Of a stretch of 25,015 nucleotides of DNA, positions 2,198-19,919 are shown in pieces (within the stretch, counting starts at the first letter, position 1; every line of letters starts with the position of its first letter). The notes beneath the pieces are model-generated. The model was not told the DNA's origin. It was given only the letters and a program-made list of their open reading frames with translations, and made no database searches. The stretch lies in the IMG/VR virus record IMGVR_UViG_3300028743_000150, positions 1 through 25,015 of that record. One strand, given 5' to 3'. A program made the translations under genes and the position numbers. Source of the DNA: a virus.

Positions 2198-2962
2198 GTG
2201 ACCGATATTTTCCGCGATCATTACGAACGCATGAGCGCCAGCCAGGCCGCCGCCACGGCCCAGCCCTATGCTTCGCCCCAGCATACCCCCGCGCGCCCCG
2301 GCATCACGCCTTCGGCCCCCGTGGCCACCGAATACCGGCTGAAACTGGCCGAGCTGGGCGGCGATCTGGAACGCCTGCGCAATATCCAAAGCCTTGAGCG
2401 GAAAATCGCGGCCAAGCGCGAGATGATCGGCGCCTATCTGCCCTGGCTGGATGGCGCACTGGCCGCGCCCAAGCCTGCCCAGGACGAGATTGTCACCACC
2501 ATGATGATCTGGGCCATCGACATTGCCGATTGGCCGCTGGCGCTGCGCTTGGCGGGCCATGTGCTGGCCCACGGCCTCGCGCTGCCCTCGCGCTATGATC
2601 GCACCCCCGGCTGCCTGATCGCCGAAGAAGTGGCCGAGGCCGCCCTTGGCCCGAATGCCGCTGTTCCGCTGGCCGTGCTGCAACAGGTGGAAGGCCTGAC
2701 CGATCTGGAAGACATGCCTGATCAGGCCCGCGCGAAACTCTACAAGGCCAAGGGGTTGGCCCTGCGCGCCACGCTCGATGCCTTCGATCCGGAAGCCGAA
2801 AGCGCCCGCGCGGGCGGCAAGTCCGCCCTGATCGCGGCGGCCACCGATGCCTTCACCCGCGCCCTGTCGCTCGACCGCTCCTGCGGCGTGAAAGACCACC
2901 TGCGCCAACTCGAACGCCTCGCCCGCGCGCTGGCCGCCGACGCCCCCCAAACCCCCGCCTGA
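2198..2962 (+). CDS. M: Terminase small subunit gpM, P2 family
   Basis: This is a 254-residue protein starting at GTG, with AGGG seven bases upstream. In P2-like phages gpM binds the cos region and, with the ATPase/nuclease gpP, cuts and packages DNA. The family signature is seen from about residue 95: QDEIVTTMMIWAIDIADWPLALRLAGHVLAHGLALPSRYDR, then a helical region and a basic end. The N-terminal 45 residues are Ala/Pro-rich and vary in the family. The gene sits in its usual place after N. Its stop overlaps the start of the methyltransferase by one base, so the two are probably translated together. The large subunit P and the portal Q should lie left of the window if they survive. Confidence 0.88.
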   Translation: MTDIFRDHYERMSASQAAATAQPYASPQHTPARPGITPSAPVATEYRLKLAELGGDLERLRNIQSLERKIAAKREMIGAYLPWLDGALAAPKPAQDEIVTTMMIWAIDIADWPLALRLAGHVLAHGLALPSRYDRTPGCLIAEEVAEAALGPNAAVPLAVLQQVEGLTDLEDMPDQARAKLYKAKGLALRATLDAFDPEAESARAGGKSALIAAATDAFTRALSLDRSCGVKDHLRQLERLARALAADAPQTPA

Positions 2963-3774
2963 TGGACCGCGCCCCTATGCTTCCCCCCGAAACCCTCGCC
3001 CGCCTTGCCGCCATCGGCGCCACGGTGATCACCATCGGCGACGCCGTGCTGATCCATGGCGATTGCCTCGCTGCGCTGCCCTATCTGCCCCCGGTGGACG
3101 ATGTTCTCACCGATCCGCCCTATTCCAGCGGCGGCGCCTTTCGCGGCGACCGCATGGCCCCCACCAAGGCCAAGTATCAGCAGACCGGGCGGGTCGATCT
3201 GTATCCCGATTTCAGCGGCGATAACCGCGATCAGCGGGCCTATGCCTATTGGTCCACCCTGTGGCTTTCCGCGTGCCAGCGCATCATGCGCCCCGGCGGC
3301 CTGATCGGCCTGTTCTCCGATTGGCGCCAAATGCCCACAACCACCGATGCCTTGCAGGCAGGCGGCTTCGTGTGGCGCGGGATTGCTGTGTGGGACAAGA
3401 CACAGGCCACGCGCCCGGCGCTGGGCCGCTTTCGCAACCAGGCCGAGTATCTGGTGTGGGGCACGAACGGCCCGCGCCCGCTGGCCGGTGCCTGCATTCC
3501 CGGCGTCTACCGCCTGTCGGCCACCTCGGAAAAGAAGCAGCATATTGCGGGCAAGCCCACCGCACTTCTGGCCGACATGATGGCCCTGTGCGGCAACGTG
3601 GTGCTCGATCCCTTCATGGGCAGCGCTTCCACCGGAGTGGCCGCGATCAAGACCGGGCGCCGCTTCATCGGTGTGGAAATGAACGCGGACTATTTCGCCG
3701 TCTCCTGCCGCCGCCTGGCCGAAGCACAGGGCCTGCCCGTGCCCGATTTCGCCGCCATGCCCATCGCCGCCTGA
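2962..3774 (+). CDS. DNA methyltransferase, DPPY (N4/N6 beta-class)
   Basis: This 270-residue protein has the catalytic motif IV TDPPYSSGG (residues 50-58) ahead of the S-adenosylmethionine-binding motif I VLDPFMGSASTG (214-225), followed by RRFIGVEMNADYF. That order is the beta class of amino-methyltransferases, which methylate adenine N6 or cytosine N4. The region between holds the presumed target-recognition part, and HIAGKP at 194-199 resembles motif X. No restriction enzyme lies beside it, so it is probably an orphan used to protect phage DNA or change gene expression. It overlaps M by one base and so is expressed with the late head genes, close to packaging. The recognition site cannot be told from sequence. 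Confidence 0.88.
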   Translation: MDRAPMLPPETLARLAAIGATVITIGDAVLIHGDCLAALPYLPPVDDVLTDPPYSSGGAFRGDRMAPTKAKYQQTGRVDLYPDFSGDNRDQRAYAYWSTLWLSACQRIMRPGGLIGLFSDWRQMPTTTDALQAGGFVWRGIAVWDKTQATRPALGRFRNQAEYLVWGTNGPRPLAGACIPGVYRLSATSEKKQHIAGKPTALLADMMALCGNVVLDPFMGSASTGVAAIKTGRRFIGVEMNADYFAVSCRRLAEAQGLPVPDFAAMPIAA

Positions 3775-3791
3775 CCCCCAAAGAGGCCACC

Positions 3792-3983
3792 ATGTCCGCC
3801 CACATCAAAATCACCGCCGCCGCAAAGCCCATGGACGTTCACACGCTGCGCCTTGTGGATGGCCAGCCCGCCCAGGGCGCCGATTGGGTGCACCACACCC
3901 TGATCCCCGCTGGCCACAGCGAAACCTTTTACGCCACCGACCGGCGCGCCGTGCTGATCATGCCGCCGACCGGCACGGACTGA
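3792..3983 (+). CDS. Small hypothetical phage protein (63 aa)
   Basis: ATG at 3792 follows an AAAGAGG ribosome-binding site at 3780-3786, and it sits 17 bases after the methyltransferase stop. The 63 residues begin MSAHIKITAAAKPMDVHTLRL and end LIMPPTGTD. The pattern of short beta strands, with a HTLIPAGHSETFYATDRRAVLIM segment, would fit a small beta-sandwich such as a decoration or accessory head protein. That is only a structural guess. I do not recognise a named family. It has no signal peptide and no membrane segment. The good ribosome site and its fit in the operon support it as a real gene. Confidence 0.7.
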   Translation: MSAHIKITAAAKPMDVHTLRLVDGQPAQGADWVHHTLIPAGHSETFYATDRRAVLIMPPTGTD

Positions 3984-3998
3984 ACCCTTCCCCCACCT

Positions 3999-4030
3999 GT
4001 ATGCCCGCATACCTGTATACAGGCATACAC
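3999..4030. promoter_or_regulatory. Four-unit GTATRC octad array (candidate partition-protein binding site)
   Basis: Four consecutive 8-bp units begin at 3999, 4007, 4015 and 4023: GTATGCCC, GCATACCT, GTATACAG, GCATACAC. Units 1, 2 and 4 are the same hexamer in alternating orientation (GTATGC is the reverse complement of GCATAC). Unit 3 lies inside the perfect palindrome CCTGTATACAGG (4012-4023). The same hexamer at the same spacing forms the six-unit array upstream of parA. Ribbon-helix-helix proteins commonly bind short repeats at fixed spacing, so the RHH protein of the par operon is the obvious candidate binder. The array ends 30 bases before the acidic-protein gene and could regulate it. 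Confidence 0.7.
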
Positions 4031-4060
4031 CCAAACCCCACCTCAATGGAGTATCCCAAC

Positions 4061-4435
4061 ATGACGAAGATCATCGAAACCGCTGTCAACGCGATCACCG
4101 GCCTGGTCCACGACGCTGAAAGCGTCATCGAGCGCCTGGTCCATGGTGCCGAGGCCACCGTCGACAATCTGGAAGCTGACGGCGAAGGTCTGGTCGATCG
4201 CCTGACCGGCAAGGCTGACATTGCCGACACCGAGGGCGCCGACACCGAGGGCGCCGACACCGAGGAAGGCAGCACGGTCGAGGCCGACACCTCCACCGAG
4301 AACGCCAGCACGGACAGCAACCTGACTGCCACCGATCCGGCGCCCACCGCCGACGCCCCCGCCGCCGATCCGGCCCCCACCGCCGATGCCCCCGCCGCCG
4401 CCCCGGCGGCTGATGCTCCGGCCGCCACCGAATAA
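4061..4435 (+). CDS. Acidic, repeat-rich small protein of unknown function (124 aa)
   Basis: The start at 4061 is set by GGAG at 4048-4051. Residues 1-50 are a predicted amphipathic helix rich in hydrophobic heptads (MTKIIETAVNAITGLVHDAE and onward). Residues 55-68 are tandem DTEGA units encoded by 15-bp direct repeats. The rest is low-complexity Ala/Pro/Asp/Thr with two copies of PAPTADAPAA. There is almost no Lys or Arg after residue 50, so the protein is strongly acidic. I do not recognise it. An acidic tail of this kind could mimic DNA or act as a flexible linker, but nothing proves that. It sits between head genes and directly behind the GTATRC array, which may make it the one virion-region gene controlled by the partition protein. 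Confidence 0.75.
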   Translation: MTKIIETAVNAITGLVHDAESVIERLVHGAEATVDNLEADGEGLVDRLTGKADIADTEGADTEGADTEEGSTVEADTSTENASTDSNLTATDPAPTADAPAADPAPTADAPAAAPAADAPAATE

Positions 4436-4444
4436 GAGCTGCGC

Positions 4445-4497
4445 CACCGCGCCGGGGGGGCGGTGAAGGGGAAAGCAGGCAAGCCTTGCTTCGCCCC
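4445..4497 (+). other. Two hairpins in the gap before gene L
   Basis: CACCGC (4445-4450) can pair with GCGGTG (4460-4465). GGGGAAAGCA (4468-4477) can pair imperfectly with TTGCTTCGCCCC (4486-4497). No T-run follows. The remainder of the 107-base gap is C-rich leader with no clear promoter. They may be a weak attenuator or an mRNA-stability element. Confidence 0.3.
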
Positions 4498-4542
4498 TGA
4501 TCCCCACCCCCCCACCCTTTCCCCGATCCAAAGGCCGCGCCC

Positions 4543-5181
4543 ATGTCCACCTCGCCCCTGATCGCTATCGGCGCCCCTAATCCGGCCACACTGGCAGGCA
4601 CTGTCGCGGGTGATGGCTGGTGGCCCGATGTCGATTGCGCCGATGCGCGCGCAAAGCTGCGCCTGCCTGATTACGTCACCGGCCCGCGCCTGACCGGCGC
4701 CATCGAGGGCGCCTATCTCACCGTCGCGCGCCAGCTTGGCCAGTGGCGCGCAAAGATGGAGCGGGCAGGGGCCACCAGCCTGTCCGCGATCACCGCCACC
4801 GAACTGGCCGCCGCCTGCGCCGCCGATGATCCGCGCCCGCTGGGCTATGCCATGGATGACATTTTCGGCGATAGCTGGGCGCGCCTGCCTTGCCATCATC
4901 ACCTGCGCCGCCGCCCGCCGCCCGACGCGCTGCCCTCCGAAATCGCCGATGTGGTCGTGATGGTCAACGGCAAAACCGGCCTGATGGTCCAATGGCAGCG
5001 CGCCGTGTATTATCTGGCCATGGCCGAGGTGTCCGACGAATATCGCGACATGGCCACAATCAGCACCAAACAGCCGCGCGTGGACGCCATCGAATCCACG
5101 GGCCGGGACTATAGCCGCATGGCATCCGATGCTATCCGCTACATTCTGGGCACCACTGCTGTGGCGGTCGATCTGATCTGA
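4543..5181 (+). CDS. L: Head completion/stabilization protein gpL, P2 family, with an insert
   Basis: This is a 212-residue protein. The N-terminal part (WWPDVDCADARAKLRLPDYVTGPRLTGAIEGA, then LGQWRAKMERAGATSL) and the C-terminal part (VQWQRAVYYLAMAEVSDEYRD, then YSRMASDAIRYILGT..VAVDLI) follow the gpL pattern. P2 gpL plugs and stabilizes the filled head before tail joining. The protein is longer than the roughly 150-170 residues usual for the family. The extra stretch, about residues 106-140, contains the odd basic run CHHHLRRRPPP. The frame is continuous, so this is an insertion rather than a frameshift. The stop codon overlaps the start of X by one base. Confidence 0.85.
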   Translation: MSTSPLIAIGAPNPATLAGTVAGDGWWPDVDCADARAKLRLPDYVTGPRLTGAIEGAYLTVARQLGQWRAKMERAGATSLSAITATELAAACAADDPRPLGYAMDDIFGDSWARLPCHHHLRRRPPPDALPSEIADVVVMVNGKTGLMVQWQRAVYYLAMAEVSDEYRDMATISTKQPRVDAIESTGRDYSRMASDAIRYILGTTAVAVDLI

Positions 5182-6458: not shown

Positions 6459-6704
6459 ATGATAATCGTATGGGACGAACCAAAGCGCCTTTTCAATCTC
6501 GAAAAGCACGGGATTGATTTCAGGGACATTGACGAGGCTTTCTTTGCCTCTGCCCTGATCGGCCCGGCTAAGGCAGGGCGCTGGTTTGCCATCGGTGAAA
6601 TGGATGGCGTGAAGGTAGTGATCTTTGCCCGCCTTGGCACCGAAGGCCTGTCGATCATCTCGGCACGCCCTGCAAGCCGCAAGGAAAGGAACCTGATCGC
6701 ATGA
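6459..6704 (+). CDS. brnT: BrnT-family toxin (ribonuclease)
   Basis: This 81-residue protein has the BrnT layout MIIVWDEPKRLFNLEKHGIDFRDIDEAFF, with the conserved WDE.K...N..KHG.DF block, then VVIFARLGTEGLSIISARPASRKER, where relatives carry the IISARkAs.rEr ending. BrnT toxins have a RelE-like fold and cut RNA. Binding of BrnA neutralizes them. Catalytic-type residues (Lys/Arg/His in the first block and Arg in the last) are present. The gene lies directly after the AT-rich operator and overlaps brnA by four bases (ATGA). A toxin-antitoxin pair inside a phage genome could act in stable maintenance or against competing phages. Confidence 0.9.
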   Translation: MIIVWDEPKRLFNLEKHGIDFRDIDEAFFASALIGPAKAGRWFAIGEMDGVKVVIFARLGTEGLSIISARPASRKERNLIA

Positions 6705-6979
6705 CAAAGCTGCCATATACCCAAGCCGATATGGACGCCGTGTCGGACAATCCCGAACTGACGGCGGCGGATATTGCCGCCGCCCGCCCCTTTGCCGAGG
6801 TATTCCCTGAACTGGCCGCCACGATGCGCGGCGGGCGCGGCCCTCAAAAAATGCCGACTAAGGTCAGCACCACAATCCGGCTCTCGCCCGAAGTGATCGC
6901 CCATTTCAAACAGGGCGGTACAGGGTGGCAGGCTCGGATCGATGCAGCGCTCAAGGAATGGGTGGCGGGGCATTCTTGA
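6701..6979 (+). CDS. brnA: BrnA-family antitoxin, ribbon-helix-helix
   Basis: This is a 92-residue protein. The N-terminal half is a flexible toxin-binding part (YTQADMDAVSDNPELTAADIAAARPFAEVFPEL), and the C-terminal half holds the DNA-binding motif VSTTIRLSPEVIAHFKQGGTGWQARIDAALKEWV. That motif is the BrnA form of the ribbon-helix-helix. The start overlaps the brnT stop by four bases. BrnA both blocks BrnT and represses the operon. It is the second RHH protein in this region, the other being the partition protein. The two have different sequences and should bind different sites. Confidence 0.9.
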   Translation: MTKLPYTQADMDAVSDNPELTAADIAAARPFAEVFPELAATMRGGRGPQKMPTKVSTTIRLSPEVIAHFKQGGTGWQARIDAALKEWVAGHS

Positions 6980-7070: not shown

Positions 7071-7463
7071 TCACCGTCGCCGCCCCCCGCCTTTCTTCAC
7101 CAGAAGATCGCTGATCGCCTCCTCTAGTAGCGCCTGCACGGTAGTGTTCTCCTCGGCGGCCAGGATGCGCAATTGGGTAGAGATTTCGGGGGCGAAGTGG
7201 CCGCCGATCAGCTTTTTGCCCTCGCGCCCCCTGCTGGGCAGGGGCGCCGTTGCTCCACCGCGCTCGCCGGAGCCTGTCACAGTGCTTGATTGATGTGCCG
7301 CCGCCGCGACTTGTGCCGCAAGCTGCCCCAGATCCACGATGGGCAGGGAAACAGTGTTCGGCGCGCTGCTGGCGGGGGCATGGTCGGTCGTGTCCCCCTT
7401 GGCCGCTGCGGCCAAAGCTGCGGCTAGTCCACGTCCTGCACTCTTGCGGCGCTTGTCAGTCAT
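7071..7463 (-). CDS. Ribbon-helix-helix partition protein (ParB/ParG-like centromere binder)
   Basis: This is a 130-residue protein. The chosen ATG at 7463 has AGGAAGGG just upstream and overlaps the stop of the 55-residue gene. The C-terminal part (residues 84-124: KLIGGHFAPEISTQLRILAAEENTTVQALLEEAISDLL) is a ribbon-helix-helix fold, as in the centromere-binding partners of type Ib partition ATPases such as ParG. Residues 8-20, KSAGRGLAAALAA, resemble the N-terminal GRGLxALL motif by which ParB proteins touch ParA. The middle 45 residues are a flexible Ala/Ser/Gly linker. It most likely binds the GTATRC octads, represses the operon and stimulates ParA. The partition role is inferred from operon and fold. 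Confidence 0.8.
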   Translation of the reverse strand: MTDKRRKSAGRGLAAALAAAAKGDTTDHAPASSAPNTVSLPIVDLGQLAAQVAAAAHQSSTVTGSGERGGATAPLPSRGREGKKLIGGHFAPEISTQLRILAAEENTTVQALLEEAISDLLVKKGGGRRR

Positions 7464-7623
7464 GGTTTTGCCCTTCCTCTTTTTCACTGGCGCGGATGGC
7501 CTTGCGCAGCGCCACCAGCTTGGCAGCGGCTTGCGTATCGGGCTGCCCAAACGCCTCCACAAATTCGCGGGCTGCGTCGCGTACTAAACGCAATCGAACA
7601 ACTTCCTCACACAAATCAGGCAT
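7456..7623 (-). CDS. 55-residue protein between parA and the RHH gene
   Basis: ATG at 7621-7623 overlaps the parA stop by eight bases, and its TGA at 7456-7458 overlaps the start of the RHH gene by eight bases. The frame is fully open. The protein is MPDLCEEVVRLRLVRDAAR, then a helical FVEAFGQPDTQAAAKLVALRKAIRA, and a Glu-rich end. It is almost all predicted helix with alternating charge, like a small coiled-coil dimer. I do not recognise a family. The tight coupling on both sides argues that it is made with the two partition proteins and could be a third subunit or modulator. It could instead serve only to couple translation of its neighbours. Confidence 0.7.
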   Translation of the reverse strand: MPDLCEEVVRLRLVRDAAREFVEAFGQPDTQAAAKLVALRKAIRASEKEEGQNHD

Positions 7624-8260
7624 TATCGCCAGTCTCCATCACCTTACACGCATACGTGTATACGTCCGCAATCTCCTGCGCCGCCGCACTTTTGGGCGCG
7701 TATTCCTGCACGGCCAGGCCATCCACCTGGGCGCGAGAATAGTCTTTGCGGTTGCCGATCAGGATCGGGCAAACCTGCGCCCCCATCGCGGCTACGGCCT
7801 CCATGGTTTCTGCTGCCTCTGCTCCGCGCGGGGCCACTTGGGTCAGTATCACGCGGGCGGGCTTGCCCAACTGGCGCACCAGATCGAGCGTGTGCCCCAT
7901 GCTGATCGTATCGAACAGGGCAGGGCGCGTGGGGATCAGCACCAGGTCGGCTACGCTGGCCGCCGCATGGGCTACATCGCGCGCCACCGCTGCGCCATCA
8001 ATCACCACCAGATCAGCCCCGGCGCGCTCTGCCGCCTTGATCGTATGGGACAGGCGCACCGCCTGGATGGATTGCACCGTGGGTTCGTCCAGCCCCGATG
8101 CCTCCAGGCGCCGGTCGGCCCATGCGGCGGCGGTGGCCTGTGGGTCCAGATCGAGCAGGCAGGTTGCCTTGCCATCGGCCTGCGCGGCCACGGCAATACA
8201 CGTGGCCAGCGTGGTTTTGCCCACGCCGCCCTTTTGCGAGAGAATAGCGATAACTTGCAC
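7616..8260 (-). CDS. parA: ParA-family partition ATPase (small, type Ib-like)
   Basis: This is a 214-residue protein starting at GTG, with AGAAGGA eight bases upstream. The deviant Walker A KGGVGKTT (residues 10-17) with its signature lysine, the switch region LLDLDPQATAAAW (35-47) and the Walker B-like LVVIDGA (84-90) define a ParA/MinD ATPase. It lacks the N-terminal helix-turn-helix of type Ia ParA proteins and has the length of type Ib ParF/Soj-like ATPases, which form ATP-dependent dimers on the nucleoid and move plasmid copies. The order ATPase, then RHH protein, with repeats upstream matches type Ib plasmid partition loci. Its presence in a P2-like prophage is unusual and hints at plasmid-like maintenance. 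Confidence 0.93.
   Translation of the reverse strand: MQVIAILSQKGGVGKTTLATCIAVAAQADGKATCLLDLDPQATAAAWADRRLEASGLDEPTVQSIQAVRLSHTIKAAERAGADLVVIDGAAVARDVAHAAASVADLVLIPTRPALFDTISMGHTLDLVRQLGKPARVILTQVAPRGAEAAETMEAVAAMGAQVCPILIGNRKDYSRAQVDGLAVQEYAPKSAAAQEIADVYTYACKVMETGDNA
7642..7665. repeat. Octad pair of the GTATRC type inside the 3' end of parA
   Basis: GCATACGT (7650-7657) and GTATACGT (7658-7665) are two direct octads with the spacing of the upstream array, preceded by the degenerate CCTTACAC (7642-7649). They lie in codons for DVYTYACKV of ParA. They may be a secondary binding site or chance from codon choice. The exact 8-base spacing makes them worth noting. Confidence 0.45.
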
Positions 8261-8308: not shown

Positions 8309-8357
8309 GTAAGCTTGTATGGTCGTATGCGTGTATACAGGTATACGACCATACAAG
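8309..8357. promoter_or_regulatory. Six-unit GTATRC octad array: candidate par centromere and operator
   Basis: Direct reading from 8309 gives octads GTAAGCTT, GTATGGTC, GTATGCGT, GTATACAG, GTATACGA, CCATACAA, strictly every 8 bases. The block is also a 44-bp inverted repeat: CTTGTATGGTCGTATGC (8314-8330) against GTATACGACCATACAAG (8341-8357), 16 of 17 pairing, around a 10-base centre. It lies 49 bases upstream of the parA start and overlaps its predicted promoter. Type Ib systems place the centromere in exactly this spot, where the RHH protein binds phased short repeats to repress the operon and seed the partition complex. Confidence 0.8.
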
Positions 8358-8382: not shown

Positions 8383-8412
8383 AAAAAAGAGGCCGAAGGT
8401 TTCCCCCCGGCC
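8383..8412 (-). terminator. Intrinsic terminator of the lysis/tail operon
   Basis: Read on the minus strand, GGCCGGGGG (8404-8412) pairs with CCTTCGGCC (8391-8399), nine pairs including two G-U, closed by a GAAA tetraloop. It is followed at once by TCTTTTTT (8383-8390). This is a textbook Rho-independent terminator. It lies 25 bases after the last gene of the leftward operon and isolates that operon from the par promoter downstream. Confidence 0.9.
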
Positions 8413-8436
8413 CCCGTCAAATTCTGCCCCTACGCC

Positions 8437-18767: not shown

Positions 18768-19919
18768 ATGGCCCGTTCCACGATTTTCCACGGCATCAAG
18801 ACCAACCTGCTGTCGACCACCTCGCTGACCATCACCAGCGTTTCCACCGCCGTGATTGGCCTTGTGGCGACGGCGGATGATGCCGATGCCACCGTGTTTC
18901 CGCTCGATACCCCGGTGGCCATCACTGATGTGCGCGCCGCGATCACCAGCGCCGGGGCGACCGGCACGCTGGCGCTCTCGCTGGCGGCTATCGCCGATCA
19001 GTGCCAGCCCGTGGTGGTGGTAGTGCGCGTGGCCACGGATGCCACCGACGCCACCGGCCAGGACGCGCTGGTCACGGGGGCTACGCATGGCGGGTATACG
19101 GGTATGCAGGCCCTGCTGGTGGCCGAGCTGCATACGGGCAGCAAGCCGCGTATTATCGCTGCGCCGGGGCTGGAAAGCCCTACGGTGATCGGCGCGCTGG
19201 CCACGGTGGCCAAGGGGTTGCGCGGGGTGGCCTATTGCTATCTGCCCGCCGCCGCGCGCGATGACGCGATCACCGCCGCCGCCAGCTATGGCCAGCGCGA
19301 GCTGATGCTGTTTTGGCCCAATGCCACGGGAACCTATGTCGCGGCGCTGGCTGTGGGCTTGCGCGCGCAGATTGATGCCAGCACTGGGTGGCACAAGACG
19401 GTTTCCAACGTGCTATTGGCGGGCGTCACCGGGCTGGATCATGCGATCACCTGGGCGCTGGACGGCGGATCGAGCGACGCCACCTTGCTCAACAATGCGC
19501 GGATCACCACGCTGATCAACCGCAATGGCTGGCGCTTCTGGGGCAATCGCACCACCAGCGACGACGACGCCTACAGCTTCGAAAGCGCCACGCGCACCAG
19601 CCAGGTGTTGCAGGATAGCATCGACGAGGCGTGCTTTGTCTATGCCGACAAGCCGCTGACGCTCCAACTGGTCAAGATCATTCTGAGCGACATCAACACC
19701 TATCTCAAGAAGCTGGCCAAGGCCGGGCAGATCATCGGGGGCAAGGCCGAGTATGATCCCAGCCTCAATAATGACAGCGCGCTGAACAATGGCCAGTTGG
19801 CGATCAGCTATGATTTCACCGCCGTGGCGCCGCTGGAAGGTCAGACCTACAACCAGACGATCACCGACACTTACTATGTCAATTTCAACGCGCTGGCGAC
19901 CACCACCACGGCGTCCTGA
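18768..19919 (+). CDS. FI: Contractile tail sheath protein FI, P2 family
   Basis: This is a 383-residue protein (P2 FI has 396). Family blocks are MARSTIFHGIKTNLLSTTSL, VIGLVATADDADATVFPLDTPVAITDV, RIIAAPGLESPTVIGALATVAKGLRGVAYCYLPAA, INRNGWRFWGNRTTSDDDAYSFESATRTSQVLQDSIDEA and the C-terminal VAPLEGQTYNQTITDTYYVNF. The C-terminal part interlocks sheath subunits. The protein contracts to drive the tube through the envelope. GGAT precedes the ATG. Codons 109-114 (GYTGMQ) contain two GTATRC octads. Confidence 0.96.
   Translation: MARSTIFHGIKTNLLSTTSLTITSVSTAVIGLVATADDADATVFPLDTPVAITDVRAAITSAGATGTLALSLAAIADQCQPVVVVVRVATDATDATGQDALVTGATHGGYTGMQALLVAELHTGSKPRIIAAPGLESPTVIGALATVAKGLRGVAYCYLPAAARDDAITAAASYGQRELMLFWPNATGTYVAALAVGLRAQIDASTGWHKTVSNVLLAGVTGLDHAITWALDGGSSDATLLNNARITTLINRNGWRFWGNRTTSDDDAYSFESATRTSQVLQDSIDEACFVYADKPLTLQLVKIILSDINTYLKKLAKAGQIIGGKAEYDPSLNNDSALNNGQLAISYDFTAVAPLEGQTYNQTITDTYYVNFNALATTTTAS

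Follow-up and report, generated by a model that had tools for sequence, protein, structure and literature searches.

Array A, a row of four 8-bp units lying between the head genes of a P2-like phage, is very likely a remote site for the RHH ParB-like protein that the phage itself encodes. It probably serves as a dispersed parS/operator of that protein, acting as the promoter-operator of the accessory gene behind it and probably also as an auxiliary centromere. The phage is represented by a virus record of 25,015 bases, which was analysed whole and is referred to below as the window.

Array A, its neighbours and the par operon

In the window, P2-type genes for the capsid, the small terminase, head completion (L) and the tail follow the P2 order; downstream of L, the tail genes are followed by a BrnT/BrnA pair and then by rhh and parA on the minus strand. 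The features considered are as follows.

1037-2095, capsid
2198-2962, small terminase
2962-3774, DNA methylase
3792-3983, plus strand, small conserved ORF upstream of array A, with relatives in G587, G592, L285 and L119
3999-4028, plus strand, array A
4012-4023, CCTGTATACAGG, a 12-bp palindrome with its centre in the third octad of array A
4061-4435, plus strand, accessory gene behind array A, encoding a small acidic protein of 124 aa
At 4543, head completion L
7074-7463, minus strand, RHH ParB-like protein of 130 aa when counted from the likely ATG (the listed ORF extends to 7562)
7456-7623, minus strand, small ORF between parA and rhh, with a partial relative in G588
7616-8260, minus strand, ParA partition ATPase, 214 aa, GTG start
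7650-7663, site C, a pair of octads at the parA 3' end and ahead of the following ORF
8309-8354, minus strand, array B of the par operon, roughly six octads in a promoter-proximal position to parA
8388-8415, minus strand, stem-loop resembling a terminator, located between array B and the fibre gene, from a consensus scan only

Array A consists of four octads in exact phase at a period of 8 bp, with the cores GTATGC (3999), GCATAC (4007), GTATAC (4015) and GCATAC (4023) separated by CC, CT and AG. It starts 15 bp past the stop codon of ORF 3792-3983 and ends 32 bp ahead of the ATG of ORF 4061-4435, upstream of which a GGAG was seen by eye. Four phased units with a 12-bp palindrome upstream of a small gene had been described in an earlier sequence-only reading of this DNA, and the cores and the palindrome were all located. 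The same reading had reported that the par-type array recurs about 4.3 kb away, and array B was found there. The best resemblance of array A to this parA array was in the same gene-ward orientation, with 26/30 bases identical against 24/30 in reverse, a small contrast because the units are near-palindromic. Each of the two arrays departs from GTATAC by at most 3 mismatches over 4 units (24 core bases). No sigma-70-like promoter was called in 3780-4560 or around array B by a scan that suits alphaproteobacterial promoters poorly.

The ORF behind array A encodes 28 D+E against 4 K+R among its 124 residues, and its codon-position GC (0.72/0.55/0.81) is like that of the neighbouring genes and follows the phage pattern. 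A single-sequence scan of viral contigs returned no homologue, and no convincing one was found either among 195 Novosphingobium genomes, where a single match was weak (E 0.009), or among 159 further loci; NCBIfam and PADLOC gave no match, and matches in Pfam and PHROGs were sub-threshold. The closest relatives of the window, G587 and G592, have the homologue of ORF 3792-3983 and lack the acidic gene, which looks like an accessory cassette inserted between that ORF and L. Rather than a core virion gene, array A thus has behind it an accessory ORF for which no convincing homologue was found. In the same two relatives, the methylase homologue (61% and 57% identical, respectively) sits near a CI-like gene.

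Directly left of the capsid gene, an IS91-like transposase stretch (58-886) is about 90% identical to copies on Novosphingobium and Sphingobium plasmids, and the head genes expected ahead of the capsid are absent from the window record. In a near-DNA plasmid search, matches among the best 20 of 23 records were confined to this IS91-like end. The BrnT/BrnA toxin-antitoxin pair (6459-6979) closes the tail-completion cluster, and close relatives of it occupy the corresponding position in G592 (72/68%) and in a par-less Novosphingobium prophage (L118, 84%).

A small Walker-type ParA adjoins a DNA-binding gene in the par operon of the window. ParA matched a PHROG ParA-like family (E 1.4e-41) and Pfam CbiA (62.3 bits), and scored 156.8 bits against NCBIfam NF041546, under the cut-off of 180; the RHH protein matched Pfam PF20605 at 78.7 bits (cut-off 27.2). 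In the structural model of the RHH protein the C-terminal helices alone were confident (pLDDT about 86-91; overall 64.8), and the top Foldseek matches of the model included Arc, CopG and AmrZ, all with E above 1, while sequence searches of the PDB matched nothing useful. The small ParA, its small RHH partner and the short, contiguous repeats at the par promoter mark the operon as a candidate RHH-type (type Ib) ParABS module, in which the RHH protein would bind the repeats and activate ParA, and which would stabilise the replicon. Site C had escaped the earlier reading; its place holds a full array in G586, G593, G594 and all nine of the plasmids described below. A further two-unit match at 19094, in the tail sheath gene, lies over the conserved coding motif YTGMQAL and was rejected as coding.

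Association of octad arrays with the ParA/RHH pair

Octad arrays were found near-exclusively with this ParA/RHH pair. Twelve par-bearing replicons, comprising three phages (window included) and nine plasmids, were scanned for three hexamers at a period of 8 with at most three changes to GTATAC. They yielded 40 arrays at period 8, 7 at period 16, a multiple of 8, and none at periods 6, 7 or 9-15. GTATAC was the best of 64 palindromic cores in these replicons, the runner-up giving 10 sites. No array was present in 90 P2-like loci without this ParA/RHH (1,347 kb), of which L297 and L334 carry a distant ParA, or in 60 loci with other ParAs (912 kb). The exceptions to the co-occurrence were L200 (ParA 46%) and L218 (ParA 31%), each with one weak three-unit site bearing 3 mismatches and neither with an RHH match.

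Chance would have to produce the array from a short unit, and nothing else speaks for it. First-order shuffles of the whole window (n=200) reached 6 mismatches at best, once, and never fewer; second-order shuffles (n=150) contained no three-unit site, and dinucleotide shuffles searched with a related pattern (n=100) gave no match. The exact three-unit pattern occurred once, with a different make-up, in 397 Sphingomonadaceae genomes, a scan that measures background only because the pattern is stricter than the plasmid arrays. Against the shuffles, the empty control P2-like loci and this single genomic match, a chance origin of array A, which the sequence-only reading had called unlikely, can be set aside with near certainty.

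The period also bears on the proposal that the repeat works as RNA, as a hairpin terminator or attenuator between the head genes, and not as DNA. The outer octads do pair, with an MFE of -13.5 kcal/mol and a z of -2.1, and 7/200 shuffles folded equally well; any row of palindromic units folds so, and the rule of period 8 across replicons is a DNA-face rule. There was no T run, no terminator call and no Rfam match at array A, and an RNA role, highly improbable on these grounds, was rejected for want of both the T run and the Rfam match.

The beta strand of the RHH protein was compared with the repeat. The strand K[LM]IGGHF, found in the window, G586, G587, G593 and most plasmid relatives, pairs with GTATAC-type octads, and the N. 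umbonatum prophage (G588) combines the strand KQIAGHF with the octads GTAGAC/GTCTAC/GTCGAC ahead of parA. The beta strand and its predicted operator have changed together in one clear instance, not in a series. More distant ParA/RHH pairs in L025 and L026 have the strand KTM[IV]AGYF and GC-rich repeat rows upstream of parA; no clear co-change emerged from a de novo scan of these rows, and they were not used as proof of it. The co-occurrence and the one strand/operator co-change strongly support a link of the octad array to the RHH partition protein, the tie that the sequence-only reading had drawn.

Relatives in viral contigs were recovered by profile scans, single-sequence scans with the capsid, ParA and the acidic protein having returned 0, 1 and 0, respectively. 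The pattern scan of viral contigs gave 12 matches, two of which hold this ParA/RHH; in the other ten, no window protein matched within the stored stretch. Three of those ten (L140, L132 and L137) were covered by a further pattern scan. Rows of GTATAC octads were seen in the lower-GC viral contigs L133, L139, L142, L131, L134 and L141, where neither ParA nor the RHH protein of the window had a match within the stored part; these rows possibly serve another repeat-binding protein. The betaproteobacterium Nitrosomonas sp. JL21 (L009) has a ParA 56% identical to that of the window and the same octad arrays; thus, the module has crossed classes.

Distal arrays in phages and plasmids

The comparison took in the six P2-like phage records that carry this ParA/RHH and reach 25 kb or more: the window, G586, G587, G588, G592 and G593. 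Duplicate loci of G586 and G587 (L196, L198, L274 and L318) were counted once, and G594, a short fragment of 6.9 kb, was excluded. By sequence alone, four of the six have arrays distal to par, seven in total, with one in the window and two each in G587, G592 and G593; G586 and G588 have no distal array of the searched cores. One match in G588, GTATAA-GTCGAC-GTCGAC at L182:11208, falls within a tail gene and was left out of the count, GTCGAC being frequent in GC-rich DNA.

In G587 and G592, whose CI-like repressors are 76.5% identical, one distal array overlaps or abuts the stop codon of the repressor gene, and the second has the portal gene on one side and, on the other, the small conserved ORF with which the early operon toward parA begins. 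Both positions are kept while the bases of the arrays differ. In G593 one array follows tail gene S directly, and the second lies between tail tube FII and tail gene E, immediately before E. The early operon of G587 also contains, upstream of parA, an ORF (L181:9332-9907) in which an FtsK gamma domain is fused to a GapR-like DNA-binding domain; a similar ORF was seen by eye in L195 and L179.

The sequence-only reading had named, as grounds against itself, the absence of the array from this spot in related phages with the par operon. None of the five others has an array between terminase and L; however, the acidic gene is missing from them as well, and three of the five bear distal arrays elsewhere. 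With its sites at tail genes, G593 shows that the window is not alone in having a site in the virion region; what sets the window apart is the exact place, between terminase and L.

Each of the nine plasmids (L006, L185-L192) has three par-local arrays: one ahead of parA, a second at the parA 3' end, preceding rhh, and a third beyond rhh. Three of them have a distal fourth array: those of pUT1 (30753) and pDC07 (17976) both lie about 1 kb upstream of repA, and that of pHMP9 (41527) lies at the end of an integrase gene. The Caulobacter plasmid record L191 (NZ_CP114873.1) is a head-to-tail duplicate of about 13.9 kb, and its six arrays therefore count as three.

The singular place of array A and the lack of a homologue of the acidic gene would suit a relic, that is, a duplicated promoter captured with the accessory gene and no longer mattering to the phage. 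Such an origin is improbable: four perfect, phased G[TC]AT[AG]C units would be difficult to maintain in the absence of selection, and the two distal positions shared by G587 and G592 have outlasted the divergence of their bases.

The main rival to the reading as operator and centromere is that array A is an auxiliary centromere alone, which reinforces the partition complex or brings remote regions of the genome together, its location being simply an available intergenic gap. Several distal arrays are not clearly promoter-proximal, namely those at the CI-like stop codons, at the end of the pHMP9 integrase gene and upstream of repA in pUT1 and pDC07, and dispersed centromere-like sites are listed for N15, RK2, pSM19035 and pMF1 in PMC3235114. 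Array A itself, however, stands 32 bp ahead of a start codon, just as the parA array stands ahead of parA, and the sites before gene E in G593 and before the early operon in G587 and G592 are likewise ahead of genes. A purely centromeric function is on balance unlikely.

We favour the reading of array A as both operator and auxiliary centromere, and infer RHH binding, repression and centromere activity there. RHH dimers would bind side by side and cooperatively, one per octad, like omega on the heptads of pSM19035, and would cover the promoter/start region of ORF 4061-4435. The acidic ORF would then be repressed while the prophage makes the RHH protein, in parallel with the autoregulation of parA at 8309-8354. 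The nucleoprotein patch formed at array A would join the partition complex as an auxiliary centromere, a role open to it because four contiguous repeats are the minimum that activates ParA in pSM19035. The sequence-only reading had proposed that array A ties virion-region expression, or a second centromere, to the partition protein; this still gives the best account, with the corrections that the gene is accessory and not a core virion gene and that sequence cannot separate operator from centromere.

More tentatively, a plasmid-derived RHH protein may have turned into a genome-wide regulator in a group of P2-like phages. Through octad operators beside the CI-like repressor and before the early operon, a tail gene and accessory genes, one protein would in that case link the segregation of the replicon, or its copy state, with lysogeny and with transcription of the virion region.

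Comparison with known partition systems

Searches of an open-licence library turned up no publication describing octad arrays of RHH proteins in the plasmids or phages considered. The analysis brings out a layout that recurs in P2-like phages with integrases and in plasmids of alphaproteobacteria, namely an RHH ParA/ParB module accompanied by dispersed 8-bp arrays, and it supplies exact candidate sites. Should the remote arrays be operators, lysogeny and accessory genes would come under direct control of the partition proteins of phage-plasmids; should they be centromeres, the prophages must spend time as segregating extrachromosomal replicons despite their integrases.

Plasmids of sphingomonads and acetic acid bacteria (pUT1, pDC07, pHMP9 and pAPA42C_030) resemble the window in ParA (about 58-61% identity), in the RHH domain (about 60-80%) and in having the same octad arrays. 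They differ in their rep and transfer genes and in a third par array after rhh, which the window lacks. In parCAB of the Myxococcus plasmid pMF1, ParB-bound iterons likewise lie upstream, downstream and dispersed toward the replication region; pMF1 differs in being a plasmid.

SopB of N15 is not known to be an RHH protein. The likeness to N15 Sop lies in a temperate phage with plasmid-type partition and centromere sites scattered over the genome, and several candidate partition-protein sites away from the par operon were found here too, judging from sequence. N15 is a low-copy plasmid prophage with four IR sites, according to PMC7205306. The prophage state of N15 is a linear plasmid, whereas integrase genes occur in relatives of the window: both G587 and the prophage of N. 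umbonatum have integrases together with only weakly supported replication-initiation-like genes, the window itself being a 25-kb fragment.

In pSM19035, the arrays overlap the copS, delta and omega promoters, and at least four repeats are needed for ParA activation, as stated in PMC9499535. The octad system resembles delta/omega in its small ParA and small RHH protein, in several contiguous arrays of short repeats in mixed orientation, and in the placing of arrays before parA and rhh and also at remote genes. The repeat of pSM19035 is a 7-bp non-palindromic WATCACW, in contrast to the 8-bp unit with a near-palindromic GTATAC core described here. Unlike pSM19035, the octad system is found in P2-like phages and alphaproteobacterial plasmids, and its remote sites lie at phage genes.
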